Positions 16,363-28,448 of a DNA stretch of 64,000 bases are shown here, one piece after another. Each line of letters starts with the position of its first letter. Within the stretch, counting starts at the first letter, position 1. The notes below the pieces were generated by a model. That model was not told the origin of the DNA. It made no database searches and worked only from the letters and a program-made list of their open reading frames with translations. Made by a program: the position numbers and the translations under genes. Origin of the DNA: Bacteroidales bacterium (GTDB lineage Bacteria > Bacteroidota > Bacteroidia > Bacteroidales > Lentimicrobiaceae); the NCBI GenBank assembly GCA_016788045.1, contig JAEUTG010000028.1:1-64000 (forward strand), written 5' to 3'.

Positions 16363-18270
16363 ATGTCAAGGCCAACCCGAAAGAAAGAAGACATCATCAG
16401 GGAATCACATGAGCGTAGCCGGCAGTACGGAGTTTCACCCGACAGAACAAAATCGCCGAACATACTAAAGGGTAGCAGAAAAGAAGATATCCTGAAATCG
16501 AATAAGGAGTTAATTATTGTGGCTGCCCCATTGCTCGACCTCTTGTATAATTTCGTGGCAGGATCGGGTTTTATCCTGATTCTCACAGATAAAGAAGGAT
16601 GCATACTCCGCATTTCAGGCGATCAGCCGACCATTGAAGCAGCCAACCAGATGCAGATTGTAGTGGGAGCCTATCTCGACGAGAAGAGCGTTGGTACGAA
16701 CGCCATGGGAACTGCTATCCGGGAAGATATGCCAGTACAGGTTTCATCAACCGAACACTTCATCACCGCCTATCAGCAATGGACCTGTTCAGCAGCTCCT
16801 GTTCATGATGAAAAAGGCACCATTATAGGTACCATCAATCTTACCGGCCGACAGGAGTTGGTGCATCTGCACACCCTCGGACTCGTGGTTGCAGCTGTAA
16901 CCTCCATAGAAACCCGTTTGAAAAACAACCTGAATGAACAACGCCTTACCGAATCAGTCTGGTTTTTAAACACAGTGATGGATTCAATGTCGCTGGCTGT
17001 AATTTCGCTCAATGATAACGGCCAGATCAGATCGGCCAATAAAATGGCGCACAAGCTTTTAAAATATCCAAATGATCACCTTCAGGGTCTGATGATTGGC
17101 GGCATCCTGCCTGAATGGAAAAAACACTTTGAAATTGTCAGTAACCAGCAGATCATTCTCGATGAAGACACCTCACTGAACACTGCTGCCGGCAAGGAAT
17201 CATTCTGTATGAGCGCCTATCCTATTACCCTCCGCAGCGGACAGATTGACGGCATGGTAATCAGTTTCAGGGAGATGAAAAGAGTGTACAAAACAGTAAA
17301 CAAGTACACAGGTATGAATGCGCGTTATTCTTTTGAAGATCTGATCGGCGAAAGTGATGAAATAAAAAGAATTGCCGAATATGCCCGGGCGGTTGCCAAC
17401 AGCCCTTCAACTGTTTTGATTTCCGGTGAAAGCGGCACGGGAAAAGAAATAATAGCCCAGTCAATGCACAACTATTCCAACCGGGCTGAAAACAGTTTCG
17501 TTGCTTTAAACTGCGGTGCAATTTCTCCCGGACTGATCGAAAGTGAGCTATTCGGCTACGACGAAGGCGCATTTACCGGTGCTCATAAAGGAGGCAGACC
17601 CGGTAAGTTCGAACTGGCTCATGGAGGAACCCTGTTTCTTGATGAAATCGGTGAAATGCCCCCCGATATGCAGGTAAAGCTGCTCAGGGCAATTCAGGAA
17701 AGCGCTGTAACCCGCGTTGGCGGCAATAAGCTGATCCCCGTTGATGTTAGGATAATTGCAGCGACCAATAAAAATCTGAAGGAAGAGATTGACAAAGGGA
17801 GATTCAGGAGTGATCTTTTTTATCGCCTCAGTGTAATTCCGGTATATATTCCGCCTCTTCGAGACCGCCGTGAGGATATCCCCTTGCTGATACGCTATTT
17901 CCTGAACCTTAAGTCAGTGAGGCTGAAGAAAAATGTTCCGGAAATCAGCAAACAATTGTTTACTTCGCTTATACAATATCACTGGCCTGGAAATATCAGG
18001 GAACTGGAAAATTTCATTGAGAAATACGTTAACCTGGATGGCGACCTTTCCTTCGATCCTGCTTCAATGAAGGACGAGAATGCCCTGTCCTCAATTGCCG
18101 ACCCCACCGGCATTAAACAAAAACCGGCAATTTTCAGCCTTGCCGATACCGAGAAGCAGGCCATAGCCAATGCTTTGGGTCATTTCTCAAACAACATCAG
18201 CAGGACAGCCATGGCATTAGGCATCAGCCGCAATGCTTTGTATGAGAAAATAAAAAGGCACGGTCTTTAA
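16363..18270 (+). CDS. AcoR-like sigma-54 dependent activator (GAF-PAS-AAA+-HTH)
   Basis: A 635-residue bacterial enhancer-binding protein. Residues about 50-190 form an AcoR-type GAF domain, with the signature DEKSVGTNAMGTAI at 106-119 followed by EHF. A PAS-like segment follows (about 200-310: LNTVMDSMSLAVISLNDNGQI). The AAA+ domain carries Walker A GESGTGKE (355-362), the sigma-54-contacting GAFTGA loop (402-407), the Walker B region TLFLDEIGEMP, and RVIAATNK-like and FRSDLFYRL motifs. The C-terminus (about 605-635, ISRTAMALGISRNALYEKIKRHGL) is a Fis-type HTH. It activates transcription at -24/-12 promoters in response to a small molecule or redox cue sensed by GAF/PAS. AcoR relatives control acetoin, alcohol or glycol catabolism, so the alcohol dehydrogenase at 27.1-28.3 kb, which has a near-match -24/-12 element, is a plausible target. 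It is a single gene, convergent with the carboxylase operon. Confidence 0.92.
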   Translation: MSRPTRKKEDIIRESHERSRQYGVSPDRTKSPNILKGSRKEDILKSNKELIIVAAPLLDLLYNFVAGSGFILILTDKEGCILRISGDQPTIEAANQMQIVVGAYLDEKSVGTNAMGTAIREDMPVQVSSTEHFITAYQQWTCSAAPVHDEKGTIIGTINLTGRQELVHLHTLGLVVAAVTSIETRLKNNLNEQRLTESVWFLNTVMDSMSLAVISLNDNGQIRSANKMAHKLLKYPNDHLQGLMIGGILPEWKKHFEIVSNQQIILDEDTSLNTAAGKESFCMSAYPITLRSGQIDGMVISFREMKRVYKTVNKYTGMNARYSFEDLIGESDEIKRIAEYARAVANSPSTVLISGESGTGKEIIAQSMHNYSNRAENSFVALNCGAISPGLIESELFGYDEGAFTGAHKGGRPGKFELAHGGTLFLDEIGEMPPDMQVKLLRAIQESAVTRVGGNKLIPVDVRIIAATNKNLKEEIDKGRFRSDLFYRLSVIPVYIPPLRDRREDIPLLIRYFLNLKSVRLKKNVPEISKQLFTSLIQYHWPGNIRELENFIEKYVNLDGDLSFDPASMKDENALSSIADPTGIKQKPAIFSLADTEKQAIANALGHFSNNISRTAMALGISRNALYEKIKRHGL

Positions 18271-20528: not shown

Positions 20529-22085
20529 TTATTGAGGAATATTTCCATGTTTTTTTGGCGGAAGCATATCAACCTTTGATACCATCACTTCCAAAGCATC
20601 AATTAATCGCTGACGGGTTTCCTGTGGCAGGATTACCTCGTCGATGTAACCACGGCTGGCTGCGAGATAGGGAACATTGAAAGCATTTTCGTACTCGTCG
20701 ATTTTTTCACGTGTTTTAGCTTCCTTATCAGATGCCTCTTTGATTTCCTTTCGATATCCCGAAAGAACCTCAACCGCTCCCTTTGCACCCATCACCGCGA
20801 TTTCAGCGGTTGGCCAGGCAAAAACCATATCAGAACCAAGCTGTTTAGAGCTCATGGCCAGATAAGATCCGCCGTAATCTTTCCGGATTATAACGGTGAA
20901 CTTCGGAACAGTTGCTTCTGAGTAACTCCACAGCAACTTGGCTCCATGCCTGATAATTCCGGCCCACTCCTGATTTACACCCGGCAGATATCCCGGAACA
21001 TCGACAAATGTGATGACAGGAATGTTGAATGCATCACAGGTACGTATAAAACGGCTGATTTTATCTGAAGCATCAATATCTAGGCAGCCGGCCAGTACCA
21101 TTGGCTGATTGGCAACTATACCCACCGAACGGTTGTTGAGACGTGCAAAGCCAACGATGCAATTTCCGGCGAAGAGTGAGTGTACTTCGAAAAACTCCCC
21201 TGCATCCACCACCTCATGAATGATAGCCTTCATATCGTAAGGCACTTTCGGGTCATCTGGAATAATGGTATCGAGTTCAGGGCAGAGCCGGGCAGGATCA
21301 TCTTCCATTTCGATATGCGGAGCCTGGCTCATATTGTTATCAGGCAAATAATCAAGCAGTTCGCGAATGTGCTCTATGGTATCTTTATCGTTTTCACAGG
21401 CAAAATGAGCATTCCCGCTTTTCGAATTGTGAACCAGGGCACCACCCAGTTCCTCAAAATTGGTTTCTTCACCGGTAACGGTTTTGATCACATAAGGGCT
21501 GGTAATAAACATATGGCTGGTTTTCCTGACCATGAAAACAAAATCGGTCATGGCTGGAGAATACACCGCACCACCGGCGCATGGGCCCATAATGGCGGAG
21601 ATCTGCGGGATAACACCGGAAGCTCTGGAGTTTCTGAAAAAAATATCGCCATATCCCTTCAGGGCATCCACCCCTTCTTCAACCCGGGCGCCGCCCGAGT
21701 CGTTGAGTCCAACCACAGGCAGCCCCGCTTTAAGCGCCAGGTCCATCACTTTGCAAATCTTTGCGGCATGCATCTCGCCCAGCGACCCCCCGCTGGAGGT
21801 AAAATCCTGCGAAAATGCAAAAACAGCCCGCCCATTGACCAATCCGTGACCGGTGATCACCCCGTCGGAAACGATCTCCACCTTTTCCATTCCGAAATTG
21901 ACCGAACGGTGCGACACAAAAGTGTCGATTTCACGGAAGCTCCCTTCATCAAACAACAGTTCCAGCCTTTCCCGCGCGGAGAGTTTACCCTTCTCGTGCT
22001 GTTTATCGATGCGTTCCTTTCCACCCATCTGAGTAACTTTTTCCCTTTTCGCCTTCAGTAAGGCAATCTTGTCAGCAACATTCAT
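20529..22085 (-). CDS. mmdA: Acyl-CoA carboxyltransferase (MmdA / transcarboxylase 12S / PccB type)
   Basis: A 518-residue crotonase-fold carboxyltransferase with N- and C-terminal halves. Hallmarks: KGKLSARERLELLFDEGSF near the start, FSQDFTSSGGSLGEMHAAKI, LNDSGGARVEEGV, IMGPCAGGAVYSPAMTDF with its oxyanion-hole glycines, and VPGYLPGVNQEWAGIIRHGAKLL in the second half. It carries CO2 between biotin and propionyl-CoA/methylmalonyl-CoA. In propionate-forming Bacteroidota this enzyme takes CO2 off (S)-methylmalonyl-CoA. Length fits the family. It is the first gene of a three-gene set with the 57-residue ORF and the biotin/oxaloacetate enzyme. A 47-bp gap separates it from the phosphatase gene upstream, so read-through from the redox cassette is possible. 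Confidence 0.9.
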   Translation of the reverse strand: MNVADKIALLKAKREKVTQMGGKERIDKQHEKGKLSARERLELLFDEGSFREIDTFVSHRSVNFGMEKVEIVSDGVITGHGLVNGRAVFAFSQDFTSSGGSLGEMHAAKICKVMDLALKAGLPVVGLNDSGGARVEEGVDALKGYGDIFFRNSRASGVIPQISAIMGPCAGGAVYSPAMTDFVFMVRKTSHMFITSPYVIKTVTGEETNFEELGGALVHNSKSGNAHFACENDKDTIEHIRELLDYLPDNNMSQAPHIEMEDDPARLCPELDTIIPDDPKVPYDMKAIIHEVVDAGEFFEVHSLFAGNCIVGFARLNNRSVGIVANQPMVLAGCLDIDASDKISRFIRTCDAFNIPVITFVDVPGYLPGVNQEWAGIIRHGAKLLWSYSEATVPKFTVIIRKDYGGSYLAMSSKQLGSDMVFAWPTAEIAVMGAKGAVEVLSGYRKEIKEASDKEAKTREKIDEYENAFNVPYLAASRGYIDEVILPQETRQRLIDALEVMVSKVDMLPPKKHGNIPQ

Positions 22086-22132
22086 TACATTTGTATTTAA
22101 AGTTTAAAAAATCTTTTTAACTTCAGCAGGGA

Positions 22133-23320
22133 TCAGATAAAGTCCAGGTGCACATCTTTCAGATATCTTTCTTCAAGCAACTGCTTGATTTTTTTTACAA
22201 CATTTCTCCTGATTTCCAGCTCAACGGGCAGGCTGGGGTCCTGATGCGCTTCGTTGATACGGGTACCAGCCAGCAGGTATATCTGATCGTTGTTGAGCAG
22301 CAGCCTCAGCAGCGATGAAGCGGCATCCCTGCCTTCCAGGGGCAGTGAAACCCCCTCTTCGAGCCAGGTCGATACTCTGCCTAGGGTAAGTACGCCTTCC
22401 GTTACGAGATCAAAGCCCTTCATGCACGAAACGGGAGGAATACCATCCGAAATGGTTTCAAGACTTACTTCTATCTCACGGTGGGTTTCACGGGCAACAA
22501 TCTCAGCCGTTGTGCCCCCACATAACACCTTTTGCCCTGAAAACGACTCAGCAATCATGGCGAGCCGGTGGTCATCGCTGTTGTGATACGGAGGTCCCGA
22601 ACAAAGCAGCAGGCGGCGCGGTCTCCTGAAATAAATAACCACGCAGGAAGTATCATCATTGGCGGAGTAGATGTCGTTGGCATGCGCCCGCTCCACCAAC
22701 CTGCCCGACAGATCGGCAGCAGAAATTCCCGGCTCCTGCTGCAGCACATGGCAAACCCACTCACCAATTGCTGCCACATCCCAGCCAAAGGGATACATGG
22801 AAGTCCCGATTCCTGACTGGCTTACGCCATCACTTAGCAGAATTACCCGGTCTTCGCGCCTCGCCTGAAAAGTACTGCAGGCAAGTTCGCGCCTGAGGCT
22901 TGCCCTGCGGTTTATCACGAGCTTTGTTTCGTTGGTTTTCAACACTTTGCGATCTCTAATCACCAACGGATCCGGATTATCGAAATTAACGATGCGGGTT
23001 TCACCGTCGGCATCACTGTCAACTATGGTAAATGTCGCATAACTGATTTTTCTTTCTTTGTCAACCGGCAGGGTATCGAGGATGGTTCGGGCCGTGCGTT
23101 CGGAAGGATATCTTTCCATGGTAAAGTTGAGTCCCATGGTAGCAGTGAGCGTAGCAAGCACATTGGCCCGTACACCGCTGCCCAACCCGTCGCTCAGTAC
23201 GGTGATGATGCGGTTTTCCTCCTGAATTTTACGCGACAGAAATACATCTCCGCAAATGGCTTCACCCTTTTTGCAGAGCTGCCGCGAAGCAATTTCCATG
23301 TAAAATTCAATGCCGTTCAT
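22133..23320 (-). CDS. SpoIIE-type PP2C serine phosphatase linked to sensory hydrogenase
   Basis: A 395-residue cytoplasmic protein with a SpoIIE/PP2C-like phosphatase domain in residues about 1-230. The metal-binding acidic residues are visible: CGDVF, VLSDGLGSG, VILLSDGVSQSG and NDDTSCVVIYF. The remaining 165 residues (RRPRRLLLCSGPPYHNSDDHRLA onward) form a second domain that I do not recognise. Phosphatases of this type neighbour sensory [FeFe]-hydrogenases in other anaerobes and are thought to be the signalling output. Here it starts 3 bp after the hydrogenase stop codon, so the two are surely translated together. No kinase or anti-sigma partner is adjacent, so its substrate is unknown. 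It ends the five-gene redox cassette. Confidence 0.85.
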   Translation of the reverse strand: MNGIEFYMEIASRQLCKKGEAICGDVFLSRKIQEENRIITVLSDGLGSGVRANVLATLTATMGLNFTMERYPSERTARTILDTLPVDKERKISYATFTIVDSDADGETRIVNFDNPDPLVIRDRKVLKTNETKLVINRRASLRRELACSTFQARREDRVILLSDGVSQSGIGTSMYPFGWDVAAIGEWVCHVLQQEPGISAADLSGRLVERAHANDIYSANDDTSCVVIYFRRPRRLLLCSGPPYHNSDDHRLAMIAESFSGQKVLCGGTTAEIVARETHREIEVSLETISDGIPPVSCMKGFDLVTEGVLTLGRVSTWLEEGVSLPLEGRDAASSLLRLLLNNDQIYLLAGTRINEAHQDPSLPVELEIRRNVVKKIKQLLEERYLKDVHLDFI

Positions 23321-23323
23321 CGC

Positions 23324-25048
23324 TCAGAACTTTTCCTGTTCAGTTACAAGGGCATTCAACATAGCTTCGGTACGGGCTGCATTTTCGCCGAGCAGAAAAG
23401 CCACTTTCTGCACAGTGCCCATATTTTCGCGCACCACCTGCCTGATGCGTCGGACCACCTGTTCCTGCATCACTTCGGGCTGGTGCAGATCCTGTATGAT
23501 ACCGCAAACAATACGGTGCCGCTGAATGGTGAAAACGGAAAGGTTCATCAGCCTGCCTTCTTCATCTATATTTTTGTCAATCAGGTCATTGCCCGATGAA
23601 AGCACATTCAGAAATACCTTGTGGTTGCTGATCATTTTCCTGAGGTCGGCGCCCTGAAGACCCGGTCTCAGGTCCCAAAGGGCCGGAAGGTCGTTTCCGG
23701 CCAATCCGGCAAAAGCTTTGTTGCTTTCTATCACATGCAGGCTGTCATCGACCAGCACAACCCCGTAAGGCATACGCTGCAATAATACACTGGCCTTATC
23801 GGACGCTACCCGCCGCATATAGGAAACACACATCTGCCGTTCTGCCATATCGCTGAGCATGGCGATGGCAAAATCGCGGCAACTGTTGTATCCACAACCT
23901 CCGCAGTTCAGTTCATCGGCCCTGGAGGCTTTTCCGACGGTACGCAACGCATCCTGGATGTCGGATTCGCTGTACCTGCGCTTGTGCACCGGTTGACTGA
24001 CAGTGCAGAAAGCAGAGTGGATGACCGGAAAATCAGCAGATAAATCGGTTCCAGAAACTCCTGTTTTCACCATCTTTCGGTAATTCTCTATTTTCAGATT
24101 CTTGACAACGGTTCCGTTCTGCGAGGAGAACCCGGGGCCATTGATACAGCCACCGTCGCACACCAGCAGTTCGAGAAAAAGCCTTGTATTGCTCTGAAGT
24201 GTCGAAATTCCATCAAGAGCTGCCCGGATATTCTGCATGCCTGAGATATGCATATAACTGATATCCGGCAAATTGGCTGCATTCCTCAGGGTTGTTGTCA
24301 TCCCGCCGTCGAGCGGATACAGGGCACCGTCGGTTGCGCTGAAGGGTACAAACTGCACCGGTCCGTTCATCCTGACAAGACCAGGCATGATTCCCTCCTC
24401 TTCAAACCAGGCCCTCAGGTCTTTAAAAGTCAGCGCGGCATCTATCAGGGAATTGAAATCGTCGGATTCATTCTTTTTAGCCACACAGGGGCCGATAAAA
24501 ACAACCCGGATGTCTTCGCCAAACCACTGGCGGAGCATTGCTGCATGAGCCATAAGGGGTGAATGCAGTCCTGCTATGTTTGAGGTGAGTTCCGGCCTGT
24601 ACTTGCGTATGTAATCCACCGCCGAGGGACAAGCGGAGCTGATAAGTATACCGGGAGGTGCCTGCTTAAGCAAACGGGAGGTTTCAGCAGTGACCCGTTC
24701 GGCACCCAACGCGGTTTCGGAAACACCGGCAAAACCCAGCATCTTTAGGGCACCGATCAGCTCATTCACCGGAAAGGCAGTAAACTCAGCCACAAAAGAA
24801 GGGGCCAGTGAAACATAAACCGGCCTGTCGCGTCTGAGCATGCGTTTAACCCGCGACACATCGTCGCGTACCTTTTTGGCACCTGATGGACAGATAAGGG
24901 TGCAGCTACCGCAAAAAATGCAGAGTTCACGCACGATGGAAGCCCTGTCTGATGCTATCCGGATCGCTTTTACCGGACATTCCCTGATGCACTTGTAGCA
25001 ATCCTGGCAATTATTGGTTTCCGTATATACCGGCTGCATCCTGTCCAT
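23324..25048 (-). CDS. Sensory [FeFe]-hydrogenase with PAS domain (HydS/HfsB-like)
   Basis: A 574-residue multidomain iron-sulfur protein. N-terminal: two [4Fe-4S] ferredoxin motifs (Cys14, 17, 20, 24 and Cys43, 46, 49, 53). Middle (about 75-345): the H-cluster domain, with all four cubane-binding Cys kept: Cys140 in ISSACP, Cys188 in GPCVAKK, and Cys297/Cys301 in VCDGGCINGPG. The proton-relay Cys of catalytic enzymes (first C of TSCCP) is Ala139, as in sensory hydrogenases of group C. Then comes a further cluster motif (Cys382, 385, 390, 407; NCGGCGYNSC). Residues about 425-520 form a PAS domain (MPYGVVLVDDSLHVIESNKAF). It should sense H2 or redox state rather than turn over H2 fast, and signal to the adjacent phosphatase. 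It follows the ferredoxin gene by 14 bp. No HydE/F/G maturase genes lie in this window. Confidence 0.88.
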   Translation of the reverse strand: MDRMQPVYTETNNCQDCYKCIRECPVKAIRIASDRASIVRELCIFCGSCTLICPSGAKKVRDDVSRVKRMLRRDRPVYVSLAPSFVAEFTAFPVNELIGALKMLGFAGVSETALGAERVTAETSRLLKQAPPGILISSACPSAVDYIRKYRPELTSNIAGLHSPLMAHAAMLRQWFGEDIRVVFIGPCVAKKNESDDFNSLIDAALTFKDLRAWFEEEGIMPGLVRMNGPVQFVPFSATDGALYPLDGGMTTTLRNAANLPDISYMHISGMQNIRAALDGISTLQSNTRLFLELLVCDGGCINGPGFSSQNGTVVKNLKIENYRKMVKTGVSGTDLSADFPVIHSAFCTVSQPVHKRRYSESDIQDALRTVGKASRADELNCGGCGYNSCRDFAIAMLSDMAERQMCVSYMRRVASDKASVLLQRMPYGVVLVDDSLHVIESNKAFAGLAGNDLPALWDLRPGLQGADLRKMISNHKVFLNVLSSGNDLIDKNIDEEGRLMNLSVFTIQRHRIVCGIIQDLHQPEVMQEQVVRRIRQVVRENMGTVQKVAFLLGENAARTEAMLNALVTEQEKF

Positions 25049-25062
25049 TTCACTGCTATTTT

Positions 25063-25320
25063 TCAGGCATGAACGCCGCTGATAGCGGTTTTAAGAATAT
25101 TGATCACGTTGACCGGATGTACATCCTGATACACATGATCGTTGATGATCAGCACAGGACCTTTGCTGCACAAACCTGAGCAGAGCTGGCCTTTGAAATT
25201 GACTTCGGCTTCAAGTCTGCGATCATTCAGCCATGCTTTGATAAGTTCAACACTCACCCTGTTTCCCCTTGAATAGCATGAACTTCCCATGCAGATGGTA
25301 ATTTGGATTTTCGGTTTCAT
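25063..25320 (-). CDS. Thioredoxin-like [2Fe-2S] ferredoxin (NuoE-like)
   Basis: An 85-residue cytoplasmic electron carrier. The four cluster ligands are Cys10 and Cys15 (C-x4-C in ICMGSSC) and Cys47 and Cys51 (C-x3-C in LCSGLC), the spacing of thioredoxin-like [2Fe-2S] ferredoxins and of the C-terminal half of NuoE/HydC. It lacks the N-terminal helical half of NuoE. Its ATG overlaps the stop of the Rex-like gene by 4 bp, implying coupled translation, and the sensory hydrogenase gene follows after 14 bp. It probably carries electrons between the hydrogenase and a redox partner such as the flavin-reductase-like protein of the same operon. Confidence 0.88.
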   Translation of the reverse strand: MKPKIQITICMGSSCYSRGNRVSVELIKAWLNDRRLEAEVNFKGQLCSGLCSKGPVLIINDHVYQDVHPVNVINILKTAISGVHA

Positions 25321-26102
25321 ATCCGGATGTTATTATCAGGAAATTGGCAATGCGGTTGATTTCTTAACCGGTAAACAATACGTTCATAGGCAGCAGCAAT
25401 ATCCTGCCCAGGGTTGGTTTGTTCCACAAAAATCCCGGGGTCCGGATCAATAACACAGGAGGTAAAATTCCAGATGGCTTTCATGCCAGCACCGGCCAGC
25501 AGATCGGCTACATGGGAAGCCTCGCCGGCCGGAGTGGCAATGATTCCCAAACTGACACGCAACCGGGCTGCCAGAGGGATTATCTTGTCGGGCGACATCA
25601 CCCTGATGGAACCAATCTGGCTGCCGAATTTGCGGTAGTCCGTATCAAAAGCTGCCACTATCTTGAGGCTGGTTTGTCCGAGATTCTCCTTCAGCAACAA
25701 TGAAGTGCCCAGTTTCCCGGCTCCGACAAGGAATGATTCCGTTTCGTTGTAATACCCCAGAATCTGCTCCAGGGCTGCCATTAGCGGAGAGATATGAACA
25801 GCCTTCTGTCTGGCAAGCAGCAGCCCCTGACCCATCAGATCCTCTTCAACCTGATTACACGGCATTCCGGTTTCAGCGGCTATTGATTCAACAGAAAGGT
25901 CAGTCCGGCCTCTCAACCGCATCAACCTCAGATAGGACAAATACAACCCATACCTCCTGATCTCTGTAATTTCAAGATTACCGGTTGCAGGATTAAACCC
26001 GCCGGTGGATTCGCAGGTTTCACAGCCAGAAAATGATGCAGTTGAAACAAAATCCATCCGATGAAGCGATAAATACCGTGAATTTGAACTTTTAGATTCC
26101 AA
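25317..26102 (-). CDS. Rex-like redox-sensing protein with altered DNA-binding domain
   Basis: A 261-residue relative of Rex, the NADH/NAD+-sensing repressor. Residues about 48-115 correspond to the winged helix (RRYGLYLSYLRLMRLRG, then SVESIAAETGMPCNQVEEDL), and residues 122 onward to the Rossmann domain, with FLVGAGKLGTSLL as the nucleotide loop and IVAAFDTDYRKFGSQIG after it. A domain-swap-like C-terminus follows. Two oddities: an extra N-terminal stretch of about 45 residues with CETC (Cys27, Cys30), and a recognition helix reading VEEDL where Rex has V-R-K-D-L, with the usual glycine-rich wing (YGxxGxGY) missing. DNA contacts may therefore differ or be lost. It sits in a cassette with a sensory hydrogenase. 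Twin Rex-sized operators upstream of the nearby alcohol dehydrogenase make a regulatory role attractive. An alternative start is Met16. Confidence 0.8.
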   Translation of the reverse strand: MESKSSNSRYLSLHRMDFVSTASFSGCETCESTGGFNPATGNLEITEIRRYGLYLSYLRLMRLRGRTDLSVESIAAETGMPCNQVEEDLMGQGLLLARQKAVHISPLMAALEQILGYYNETESFLVGAGKLGTSLLLKENLGQTSLKIVAAFDTDYRKFGSQIGSIRVMSPDKIIPLAARLRVSLGIIATPAGEASHVADLLAGAGMKAIWNFTSCVIDPDPGIFVEQTNPGQDIAAAYERIVYRLRNQPHCQFPDNNIRI

Positions 26103-26114
26103 AACCTTTGATTT

Positions 26115-27002
26115 TTATGCCTGTTTCGACATGGGCTTTTCCGGGCTTTTGCCAGAAATTTTTCTGGCTTTGATGGCACCTGAAGAGTCTTTCACAGATG
26201 CCATGCTGATACTTGACCGGCTGATGGCATGCCTGAAATCGACCTGAAGTGCATCGAATTCAGGACCCTGGGTTGCAACATCCAGCGACTCGTTGCCTAC
26301 ATCCAGCCTGAACCCGTTGAGGCCCGCAGCAGATAGTAACTCAACGAATCCGGCAGTCGCCGGAATTCCATGATTCAGAGCAAAGTCTGCCACCTGCTTC
26401 ATCATTTTCAGTGGACCAAACGTGGTAATCAGGCTATATGCCTTCACCTGGTCGCGGGGAAGTAATTCGAGTAACTGAGTAACCGATCCTTGGAATCCGA
26501 CACTACCATCGTCGGTGGCCAGATAAACTCTCCGGCAAATTTTTTCAAACTGGTCCCTGAAAAGCAGCGAGGCTTTTGTGGTGGCAGTCAGTAAAACATC
26601 GGTTTTAACCCCGATATTATACAGCCATTCTATCTGCATCAGGGCTGAAGCAACTCCCAAACCTCCTGCTACAAACAGGAGTTCCGAGTTTATCAGCTCC
26701 CGGTCATTGCAATCGGTCAGCAACGATGGCCTGCCGTGAGGGCCAGTCATTCCGTCGAAAATAAAAATCTCAGGGTTGTTTACCATTAATGCTGTGGCCT
26801 CATCAACAACCTTCACCAGCAAACCTAGGGCTCCGGTGGCAGGATTTACCCTTATAACAGGAAGGGATACAGACCGGCTACGGGCAGTTGGTTTAACATT
26901 CACATATTGGCCCGGCAACAGATCCAGTGCAATACGGGGTGCGAATACTTCGATGAGGGCAATATCGTTGGCGGGTTTTTTTCGGCTGATGACGGTGAAC
27001 AT
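26115..27002 (-). CDS. Flavin reductase-like protein (PyrK/SudB/NfnA type) lacking Fe-S cysteines
   Basis: A 295-residue protein of the ferredoxin-NADP reductase fold, in the subgroup of PyrK, sulfide dehydrogenase beta and NfnA. It shows LLPGQYVNVKP, a TGPHGRP motif, the NAD-binding LFVAGGLGVASALMQIEWL and the late YLATDDGSVGFQGSVTQLL and ITTFGPLKMMKQVAD blocks typical of that group. The C-terminal part normally carries four Cys for a [2Fe-2S] cluster (in GMCGxCR and FxCVDGPEF). Here the matching region reads SAAGLNGFR and LDVATQGPEFDALQVDF with no Cys. The FAD-binding Arg-Ser pattern is also shifted. It may bind NAD(P)H and flavin but not the cluster, hinting at sensing rather than electron transfer. 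A 25-residue Ser/Lys-rich tail is extra. It is the first gene of the redox cassette, just after the alcohol dehydrogenase terminator. Confidence 0.8.
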   Translation of the reverse strand: MFTVISRKKPANDIALIEVFAPRIALDLLPGQYVNVKPTARSRSVSLPVIRVNPATGALGLLVKVVDEATALMVNNPEIFIFDGMTGPHGRPSLLTDCNDRELINSELLFVAGGLGVASALMQIEWLYNIGVKTDVLLTATTKASLLFRDQFEKICRRVYLATDDGSVGFQGSVTQLLELLPRDQVKAYSLITTFGPLKMMKQVADFALNHGIPATAGFVELLSAAGLNGFRLDVGNESLDVATQGPEFDALQVDFRHAISRSSISMASVKDSSGAIKARKISGKSPEKPMSKQA

Positions 27003-27021
27003 AGTTTCCTCAATTTTTCAG

Positions 27022-27055
27022 AAAAAAACCGGCAGGAGACAGGGGCTCCTGCCGG
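27022..27055 (-). terminator. Rho-independent terminator of the alcohol dehydrogenase gene
   Basis: Perfect 10-bp stem CCGGCAGGAG (27029-27038) / CTCCTGCCGG (27046-27055) with a 7-nt loop, followed on the minus strand by seven T. It isolates adh from the redox cassette starting at 27002. Confidence 0.88.
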
Positions 27056-27094
27056 TAGTAAACACACACAAGAGAAATTATTGCAGTACTTTTA

Positions 27095-28261
27095 TCATAG
27101 GGTTACTTTATTGCCATAAAAAGCAGCAGTATATAGGGTCTTGAATTCATTCACGCCTGTTTCGCGGGGATTGCATCCGGTGCAGGCATCCGATACGGCA
27201 TTGGCCGAAATCCGGTCAACATTACCCAAAAACATTTCTTCTGCAATCCCATATTCTCGCAAGCTCTGCGGAATATTCAGCTGATCATTCAAACCGGTGC
27301 AGAAATCGCGGAAGGCATCTGCTAGTTCGTTCGTTGTGGTTCCATGGAGATCAATAGAACGGGCAATCTCAGCGTAGCGGTCAGCGCAAACCCTGCGATT
27401 GAAGTCTATTACGACCGGAAGGTAAATCGCGTTCAGACATCCGTGAGGGACATGAAATACTGCCCCTGACTTATGAGCCATGCTGTGAACAATACCAAGT
27501 AACGCATTTGAGAATGCCATTCCGGCAAGACACTGCGCGATGTGCATATTATCGCGGGCAGTTTTATCTCCGTTGTATGAGCGGACAAGGTTTTCCTTTA
27601 TCATCTGTATGGCTTTGATTGCCAGTGGATCTGAAAAATCTGAACGATTCACAGCCACATATGCCTCGGTGGCATGAGCGAGTGCATCCATGCCGGTAAA
27701 GGCTACCAATTCCGGAGGCATTGTATATGCAAGTTCAGGGTCAACAATTGCAATATCCGGAGTAATCTCAAAGTCGGCAAGCGGATACTTGATCTGGGTG
27801 CTGTAATCAGTTATAACTGAAAAAGCCGTTACTTCCGTAGCTGTTCCGCTTGTTGACGGAATGGCAACAAACCTTGCCTTATTGCGAAGAGCCGGTATAT
27901 TAAATGGTTTGGCAATTTCTTCAAAGGTTGCTTCCGGATGTTCATAAAATATCCACATTGCTTTTGCGGCATCAATCGGAGACCCCCCCCCGATGGAAAC
28001 AATCCAGTCAGGCTGAAACCTGTGCATGGCTTCTGCGCCCCTCATTACGGTTTCAACCGATGGGTCGGGTTCAACACCATCAAATACCTGGGTTTCCATA
28101 CCCGCCTCATGAAGGTAGTTCTTAACCCTGTCTAAAAATCCGAATTTTTTCATCGATCCGCCACCAATGACGATGATGGCCTTTTTACCTTTAAGATTTC
28201 TGAGTTCGGCGAGAGCATCTTTTCCAAAATACAGATCGCGGGGAAGCGTGAAACGTGCCAT
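27095..28261 (-). CDS. Iron-containing alcohol dehydrogenase (butanol/ethanol type)
   Basis: A 388-residue group III Fe-dependent alcohol dehydrogenase, cytoplasmic, interconverting aldehydes and alcohols with NAD(P)H. Hallmarks: IVSIGGGSPIDAAKAMW (the nucleotide-binding GGGS motif), PSTSGTATEVTAFSVI, the metal-ligand Asp in VDPELAYTMP, His in GMDALAHATEAY, and the two further His in GIVHSMAHKSGAVFHVPHG. Length is normal. In a fermenter it would dispose of NADH as ethanol or a longer alcohol. It is monocistronic, with its own terminator at 27022-27055. Upstream lie twin palindromes at 28349-28386 and a near-match sigma-54 element at 28298-28313, with no good housekeeping -7 box, so expression looks controlled by redox and by an activator. 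Confidence 0.92.
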   Translation of the reverse strand: MARFTLPRDLYFGKDALAELRNLKGKKAIIVIGGGSMKKFGFLDRVKNYLHEAGMETQVFDGVEPDPSVETVMRGAEAMHRFQPDWIVSIGGGSPIDAAKAMWIFYEHPEATFEEIAKPFNIPALRNKARFVAIPSTSGTATEVTAFSVITDYSTQIKYPLADFEITPDIAIVDPELAYTMPPELVAFTGMDALAHATEAYVAVNRSDFSDPLAIKAIQMIKENLVRSYNGDKTARDNMHIAQCLAGMAFSNALLGIVHSMAHKSGAVFHVPHGCLNAIYLPVVIDFNRRVCADRYAEIARSIDLHGTTTNELADAFRDFCTGLNDQLNIPQSLREYGIAEEMFLGNVDRISANAVSDACTGCNPRETGVNEFKTLYTAAFYGNKVTL

Positions 28262-28297
28262 AGTTTGCTTAAGATTAGGTTAATGTTGCACCCGGAT

Positions 28298-28313
28298 GTC
28301 AATCATCATGCCA
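28298..28313 (-). promoter_or_regulatory. Candidate sigma-54 promoter of the alcohol dehydrogenase gene
   Basis: The minus strand reads TGGCATGATGATTGAC, close to TGGCACR-N4-TTGCW with correct spacing, ending 36 bp before the ATG. The C of the -12 GC is A here, a serious mismatch, so this is tentative. An AcoR-like sigma-54 activator is encoded at 16363-18270. Confidence 0.3.
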
Positions 28314-28348
28314 TAAGTTATATATATTTGATTATCATGTTTTTATAA

Positions 28349-28386
28349 ATGTTATCGAAATAACAATATTGTTATCCGAATAACAA
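28349..28386. promoter_or_regulatory. Twin Rex/CRP-size operators upstream of alcohol dehydrogenase
   Basis: Two palindromes of 18 bp: ATGTTAT-CGAA-ATAACAA (28349-28366, one mismatch) and TTGTTAT-CCGA-ATAACAA (28369-28386, perfect 7-bp arms). Their centres are 20 bp apart, about two helical turns, so two dimers would sit on one face. Arm length and 4-bp spacer fit Rex sites (TTGTGAA-N4-TTCACAA or TTGTTAA-N4-TTAACAA); a CRP/FNR-family site is the alternative. Confidence 0.6.
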
Positions 28387-28418
28387 TTGTCGTCTTTTTG
28401 AGCACAATCGCTGCCAAT

Positions 28419-28448
28419 ATTCAGGACACTGTCTCCATTCAGGACACT
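28419..28448. repeat. Direct repeat ATTCAGGACACT
   Basis: ATTCAGGACACT occurs at 28419-28430 and again at 28437-28448, 18 bp apart, in the long intergenic region between the alcohol dehydrogenase and C10 peptidase genes. It may be a tandem regulator site. The rest of 28450-28800 is AT-rich and holds nothing else I recognise. Confidence 0.5.

Follow-up and report, generated by a model that had tools for sequence, protein, structure and literature searches.

A candidate hydrogen- and redox-sensing fermentation-control island beside an alcohol dehydrogenase gene in Bacteroidales

How a fermenting bacterium splits its electrons between hydrogen (H2) and reduced products is an old question, in which sensory hydrogenases are thought to be involved; their signalling partners have not been established. 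The question is raised by a stretch of 64,000 nucleotides (referred to below as the window: positions 1 to 64,000 of contig JAEUTG010000028.1, our C34) from the 4.7-Mb draft genome of a Bacteroidales bacterium (Lentimicrobiaceae), in which five minus-strand genes stand behind an iron-containing alcohol dehydrogenase gene (adh). Counted from adh, these encode NfnA' (a relative of NfnA/SudB, the NADH subunit of the NfnAB transhydrogenase), Rex' (a relative of the NADH-responsive Rex repressors), a ferredoxin (gene fd), the [FeFe]-hydrogenase HydS and a SpoIIE-type phosphatase. We read the region as a fermentation-control island that may sense H2 and redox state, with adh under a sigma54 activator and a canonical Rex and with Rex' and NfnA' repurposed, and we put the probability of this whole reading at about one half.

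Motif loss in Rex' and NfnA'

The tight packing of the five open reading frames (22133-27002), claimed in an earlier sequence-only reading of this DNA, was confirmed: spoIIE and hydS are separated by 3 bp, hydS and fd by 14 bp and rex' and nfnA' by 12 bp, fd and rex' overlap by 4 bp, and nfnA' lies 92 bp from adh. The comparison covered 19 genomes of the genus; the near relatives that bear a name in the genome collection are Lentimicrobium sp. and metagenome assemblies of Bacteroidales. HydS was found in 10 of them at E<=1e-80 and two contigs break inside hydS, which leaves eight complete loci, the window included. Gene order in relatives had been named beforehand as the refuting test; the order adh-nfnA'-rex'-fd-hydS-spoIIE was kept in all eight, with variants outside the genus.

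The same reading had recognised a Rex variant, and this was borne out. Rex' has the two-domain fold of its family, scores 140.5 bits against NF003994 (cut-off 130), keeps the NAD-domain motifs GAGKLG, AAFD and NF, and matches the CoA_binding domain PF02629 with 46.8 bits. The DNA-binding domain PF06971, on the other hand, gives 18 bits (cut-off 27), versus 50 bits in Rex1, the canonical Rex that coexists with it and is found in 17 of the 19 genus genomes (80-88% identity). As DNA-contact motifs we scored the recognition helix Q-V-x-K/R-D-L and the wing G-x-x-x-x-G-Y. Both are altered in Rex' when it is aligned to the solved Rex 3wg9, and in all eight genus copies the QVRKD-type helix has become QVEEDL-like (QVEEDL in the window) and no wing motif is left. 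Among 46 aligned Rex sequences, both motifs are present in 29 HydABC-linked, other and Rex1 sequences and in none that is hydS-linked; the one further row that does not show both K/R-D and the G-Y wing (L073) has an unclear context and comes from the same family as the hydS-linked L051 and L097.

The main evidence that Rex' has been freed from DNA binding is that the identity pattern of its two halves is reversed with respect to Rex1. Over eight shared genomes the mean pairwise identity of Rex1 is 93.5% in the DNA-binding half and 82.7% in the NAD half, whereas the values for Rex' are 59.5% and 79.5%. Judged by these sequences, Rex' probably no longer binds DNA. The protein also carries a poorly conserved N-terminal extension of ~45 amino acids, and its start codon is TTG where relatives use ATG. 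Its predicted model (predicted local distance difference test score, pLDDT, 82) matches solved Rex structures in fold, with a different single-chain domain arrangement. Most hydS-linked Rex' proteins group together in a quick tree, with moderate support and long branches.

NfnA' scores 147 bits against SudB/NfnA (PRK06222), under the cut-off of 220, versus 393-398 bits for true island NfnA. It keeps the fold of NfnA/SudB (PDB 5jca, 4ylf) and, in most or all copies, most of the NAD-side motifs (GG.G, DGS, GP..MM, GPEF). That its Fe-S cysteines are lacking had been noted, and the loss proved to be wider: all eight genus copies are without the cysteines of the motif DGTGMCGACR...FTCVDG (here AGLNG-FRLD...VATQG) and without the flavin adenine dinucleotide (FAD) motif ERIPLT (RxPLT type), whereas island NfnA of other families has both the [2Fe-2S] cysteines and the FAD motif. 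The genus copies form one clade (100/100) on a stem of ~2 changes per column, placed among Bacteroidales NfnA with neighbours that the tree does not resolve. The ratio of nonsynonymous to synonymous change (dN/dS) is 0.12-0.25 wherever dS was computable, so that NfnA' is constrained though fast-evolving. Its AlphaFold model has a pLDDT of 86, with NfnI (5jca_S) as the best PDB match. A phylum-wide search for NfnA' gave 2 of 395 at E<=1e-30, and the second retains the NfnA cysteines. The cassette contains no nfnB, and the best NfnB-like matches in the genus (36-41% identical) lie in longer frames elsewhere.

It might be argued that NfnA' and Rex' are functionless, decaying remnants of an nfnA-nfnB-rex insertion, since the cassette has no nfnB, the motifs for cofactors and DNA contact have disappeared, and the two proteins are the fastest-evolving members of the cassette. 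We consider this unlikely, given frames that are intact in eight genomes, the dN/dS values above, a near-invariant NAD domain in Rex' and confident predicted folds. Still more improbable is that NfnA' remains an enzyme which binds its flavin in another way and passes NADH electrons to the adjacent ferredoxin and HydS, the hydrogenase thus reading the NADH couple directly: the FAD/NAD-reductase fold is kept, with NfnI as its closest match, and a [2Fe-2S] ferredoxin is encoded in the cassette, but the FAD motif and Fe-S cysteines are absent from all eight copies and nfnB is missing.

The hydrogenase and phosphatase core

A sensory hydrogenase next to a phosphatase module had been proposed, and families and motifs support it. 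HydS matches the [FeFe] hydrogenase family PF02906 (152 bits), Fer4 and the C-terminal FeS domain PF04060, and its nearest solved structures are other [FeFe]-hydrogenases. In its H-domain SSACP replaces TSCCP, i.e. alanine stands for the proton-relay cysteine; TSCCP is kept in the paralogue HydA48 and in the group B enzyme of relatives. The C-terminal cluster motif Cx2Cx4Cx16C reads CGGCGYNSCRDFAIAMLSDMAERQMC. The PAS domain is weak by Pfam (PAS_8, E=0.15), and we assign it because a paralogue in the same genome gives PAS at E=0.004 and because of the C-terminal cluster motif. Hydrogenases are assigned to the sensory group C when they have a PAS domain and have lost the proton-relay cysteine, and there is little direct evidence from physiology (PMC8924675); by the replaced cysteine, the C-terminal cluster and the PAS domain, HydS is classified from its sequence as a group-C-type sensory [FeFe]-hydrogenase.

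Each gene of the cassette had been taken for a sensor version of a metabolic or regulatory protein. This does not hold for every member. The ferredoxin retains four cysteines (PDB matches: HydC 7q4v and 2auv), and the phosphatase, which matches SpoIIE (PF07228) with 45 bits and E=1.1e-11, keeps the PP2C-type motif residues D44/G45, D164/G165 and D222/D223, invariant across 21 homologues from hydS loci. The C-terminal part of the phosphatase (22136-22639) is without a Pfam match, and the stretch GT..N.AHQDP.LPVELEIRR in it is strictly conserved in the same homologues; this part is an unnamed domain and perhaps contacts HydS.

The genome has seven H-domain matches. A second fd-hydS2(PAS)-spoIIE2 module (L008:13226-16595) and a hydABC operon point away from each other, and two Rex-like sites spaced by 17 bp lie between them. 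At L008:6784-8802, a sensory-type [FeFe]-hydrogenase carries a fused histidine-kinase-like domain; hydABC, the canonical rex and two response-regulator-like genes are nearby.

Putative control of adh

Promoter motifs were compared in 14 adh upstream regions, which include eight related, non-independent genus sequences, with expectations taken from shuffles. TGGCAY-N5-T[TG]G, a sigma54-type element, occurs near the adh start codon in all 14, and its TTG form in 13 (shuffle mean 0.06). Farther upstream, TGTC[AC]T[AG]A-N5-7-ACA, often in tandem, was found in 11 of 14 regions (shuffle mean 0.02). The palindrome TGTTA-N6-TAACA is likewise present in 11 of 14, compared with 0.03 in shuffles.

The twin palindromes of Rex size which had been reported at adh lie at 28350-28365 and 28370-28385. 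The distal one can be lengthened to ATTGTTA-N6-TAACAAT (28368-28387), which has been published as the Rex motif of Thermoanaerobacter ethanolicus (PMC5886521), and the pair recurs 20 bp apart at the same position in all eight genus copies. The twin palindromes are thus not due to chance, being both conserved and enriched. Over the whole genome, TGTTAT-N4-ATAACA with one mismatch allowed shows no enrichment (20 occurrences, versus 19 of the reversed pattern), and therefore only close pairs and conservation are informative about operators. We also considered that the palindromes are the enhancer of the activator, as TGT-N10-ACA fits both. We did not adopt this, for two reasons: the palindromes of G699, G665 and G702 are downstream of the -12 element, where transcription is likely to start, and most copies have a separate TGTC[AC]T.. 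tandem repeat farther upstream. Elsewhere in the genome, a single exact Rex-like site lies upstream of a cydA-like gene (L148:4179) and three, including a close pair, at an OadA/PycB-like gene (L147:4437-4517), which suggests a Rex regulon for respiration and carboxylation.

Which Rex would bind at adh? The sequence-only reading had named the Rex-like protein of the cassette, and it could indeed be held that Rex' is still a repressor with altered contacts, which acts at the twin operators to control both adh and the cassette that encodes it: it is above the NF003994 cut-off, the operators are Rex-like and a helical DNA-binding-domain fold is still predicted. This appears improbable to us. All eight copies have the QVEEDL-like helix and no wing, conservation is lower in the DNA-binding half than in the NAD half, PF06971 stays below its cut-off, the genome encodes a canonical Rex, and islands that have no Rex' (L152, L154) still carry the operator. 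The outline of the earlier interpretation (sensor, phosphatase, adh) is thus retained, and it was probably wrong about the Rex that binds the operator.

That reading had missed the sigma54-type promoter, its probable activator gene, the enhancer-like sites, the terminator and the link to hfsABCD (see below). By Pfam the activator has GAF, PAS, AAA and Fis-type helix-turn-helix (HTH) domains; it scores 399 bits against PRK11388 (cut-off 551). Orthologues (45-58% identity) occur at six outgroup islands (L051, L101, L157, L160, L164, L166), directly upstream of adh in the last four, and also in three genus loci (L203, L204, L207). Downstream of adh and ahead of nfnA', all eight genus copies keep a strong hairpin with a T-rich stretch behind it, the stems being changed (folding z-scores -4.3 to -7.2). 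At the other end of the cassette, 47 bp (within 22085-22133) separate spoIIE from a pccB-like gene.

Table 1. Features of the adh region and the cassette (positions in the window)
Feature	Position	Strand	Match or basis
SpoIIE/PP2C-type phosphatase, 395 amino acids, conserved C-terminal domain without Pfam match	22133..23320	-	PF07228
HydS, sensory [FeFe]-hydrogenase: Fer4 pair, H-domain, Cx2Cx4Cx16C, PAS-like C-terminus	23324..25048	-	
Thioredoxin-like [2Fe-2S] ferredoxin, HydC/NuoE C-terminal type, four cysteines	25063..25320	-	PF01257
Rex', Rex-fold protein with NAD-domain motifs, without DNA-contact motifs	25317..26102	-	NF003994
NfnA', NfnA/SudB-fold protein with NAD-domain motifs, lacking the [2Fe-2S] cysteines and the FAD motif	26115..27002	-	
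Intrinsic-terminator-like hairpin between adh and nfnA'	27028..27056	-	folding z-scores
Iron-containing alcohol dehydrogenase	27095..28261	-	PF00465/PF25137
Sigma54-type -24/-12 element TGGCATGATGATTGAC	28298..28313	-	TGGCAY-N5-TTG conservation
Rex-type operator, promoter-proximal copy, core TGTTATTTCGATAACA (minus-strand reading)	28348..28367	.	
Rex-type operator, promoter-distal copy, ATTGTTATTCGGATAACAAT (minus-strand reading)	28368..28387	.	
Enhancer-like sites in tandem, TGTCCTGAATGGAGACA and TGTCCTGAATATTGGCA; probable binding sites of the activator	28412..28446	-	
Sigma54-dependent activator, GAF-PAS-AAA-Fis HTH, DhaR-like; probable adh promoter regulator	16363..18270	+	

The island among relatives and known systems

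In the other seven genus loci a further hydrogenase frame follows spoIIE; in L093 it is a group B [FeFe]-hydrogenase (503.9 bits to TIGR04105), and the window has no such gene. Outside the genus, within Bacteroidales of other families, the island takes several forms. The fullest, L160, reads adh-nfnA-nfnB-rex-fd-hydS-spoIIE-fd-group B hydrogenase, with the sigma54 activator before adh. L154 has adh-nfnA-nfnB-fd-hydS-spoIIE-fd-group B, L051 and L097 have nfnA-nfnB-rex-fd-hydS (spoIIE was seen in L051), and in L164 adh stands with a fused nfnAB. Shorter forms are adh-rex-fd-hydS-spoIIE (L166), rex-fd-hydS-spoIIE (L101, L153, L155, L165) and adh-fd-hydS-spoIIE-group B (L152). The simplest reading of these gene orders is a modular island from which the lineage of the window would have lost nfnB; the trees do not prove the direction of change.

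The closest known system, alongside the sensory hydrogenases RaHydS (Ruminococcus albus) and TmHydS (Thermotoga maritima), is hfsABCD of Thermoanaerobacterium saccharolyticum, described as iron hydrogenases plus a sporulation protein (PMC5886521). This operon shares with the cassette a sensory PAS [FeFe]-hydrogenase and a sporulation-type protein. It also has a group B hydrogenase in the operon, which is present in the loci of relatives and absent here (PMC5707799, PMC5886521, PMC8924675). Deletion of hfsB (hydS-type) raised the adhE transcript and ethanol; Rex was weighed as the link, and the expression data gave no simple fit (PMC5707799). Two Rex-motif sites lie at adhE and one is predicted upstream of hfsABCD (PMC5886521). 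Unlike hfsABCD, the present cassette belongs to Bacteroidales and follows adh; its core is preceded by Rex' and NfnA' (in relatives by nfnAB), and adh is equipped with a sigma54-type promoter and an activator gene linked to it. This last arrangement resembles the AdhR-type control of alcohol dehydrogenases in Clostridium, where a -24/-12 promoter goes with TGT-N10-12-ACA sites farther up and an enhancer-binding activator of its own (PMC6615313, PMC7017808), but combines a DhaR-like GAF-PAS activator with Rex-type operators. No description of Rex or NfnA relatives inside such a cassette was found in the literature searched, most subscription journals being outside its coverage. What is new is that a Rex stripped of its DNA-contact motifs and an NfnA that has no cofactors are embedded with an fd-hydS-spoIIE core resembling the known hfsABCD operon.

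We propose that HydS senses H2 through a slow H-cluster, whose state would pass by way of the C-terminal Fe-S and PAS-like domains to the phosphatase, which would alter the phosphorylation of some protein. At the promoter of adh itself, the activator would bind the far-upstream tandem sites, and Rex1 the twin operators at low NADH. Transcripts of the cassette probably arise when polymerase reads through the terminator behind adh, and the sensor genes would therefore share the control of adh at a lower level of expression. Rex' and NfnA' presumably derive from the rex and nfnA of such islands; with their pyridine-nucleotide folds kept, they may now be protein-protein subunits, most likely a NAD(H) input to the HydS-ferredoxin-phosphatase module. 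Since relatives keep the arrangement, the island probably helps to decide whether spare electrons go to H2 or to alcohol.

The sequences show the gene content, its conservation, the loss of motifs and the promoter motifs; H2 sensing, the phosphatase target, binding by Rex1, read-through and the NAD(H) role are inferred. Several points weigh against this proposal. The -12 element reads TTGG, TTGA or TTGT where the consensus is TTGC, so that only the -24 part and TTG, without the C, are conserved. The hydS-linked Rex proteins of L153, L155, L165 and L166, from other families, also lack GxGxxG, and NAD(H) sensing therefore cannot be a general role of hydS-linked Rex'. The fast evolution of Rex' and NfnA' counts here as well.

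More tentatively, HydS, the ferredoxin, Rex', NfnA' and the phosphatase might form one complex, in which Rex' and NfnA' report NAD(H), HydS reports H2 and the phosphatase integrates both. If this is true, the cassette would be a protein-level H2/NADH comparator made from a repressor and a subunit of a bifurcating enzyme.

To conclude, the island brings together, beside an alcohol gene, a putative H2 sensor and a phosphatase, two proteins of NAD(H) fold that have left their former roles, Rex-type operators and a probable sigma54 activator. It offers candidates for the missing signalling partners, together with natural variants (with or without nfnB, rex' and the group B hydrogenase), and a case in which Rex has been repurposed and its DNA binding has probably been given up.

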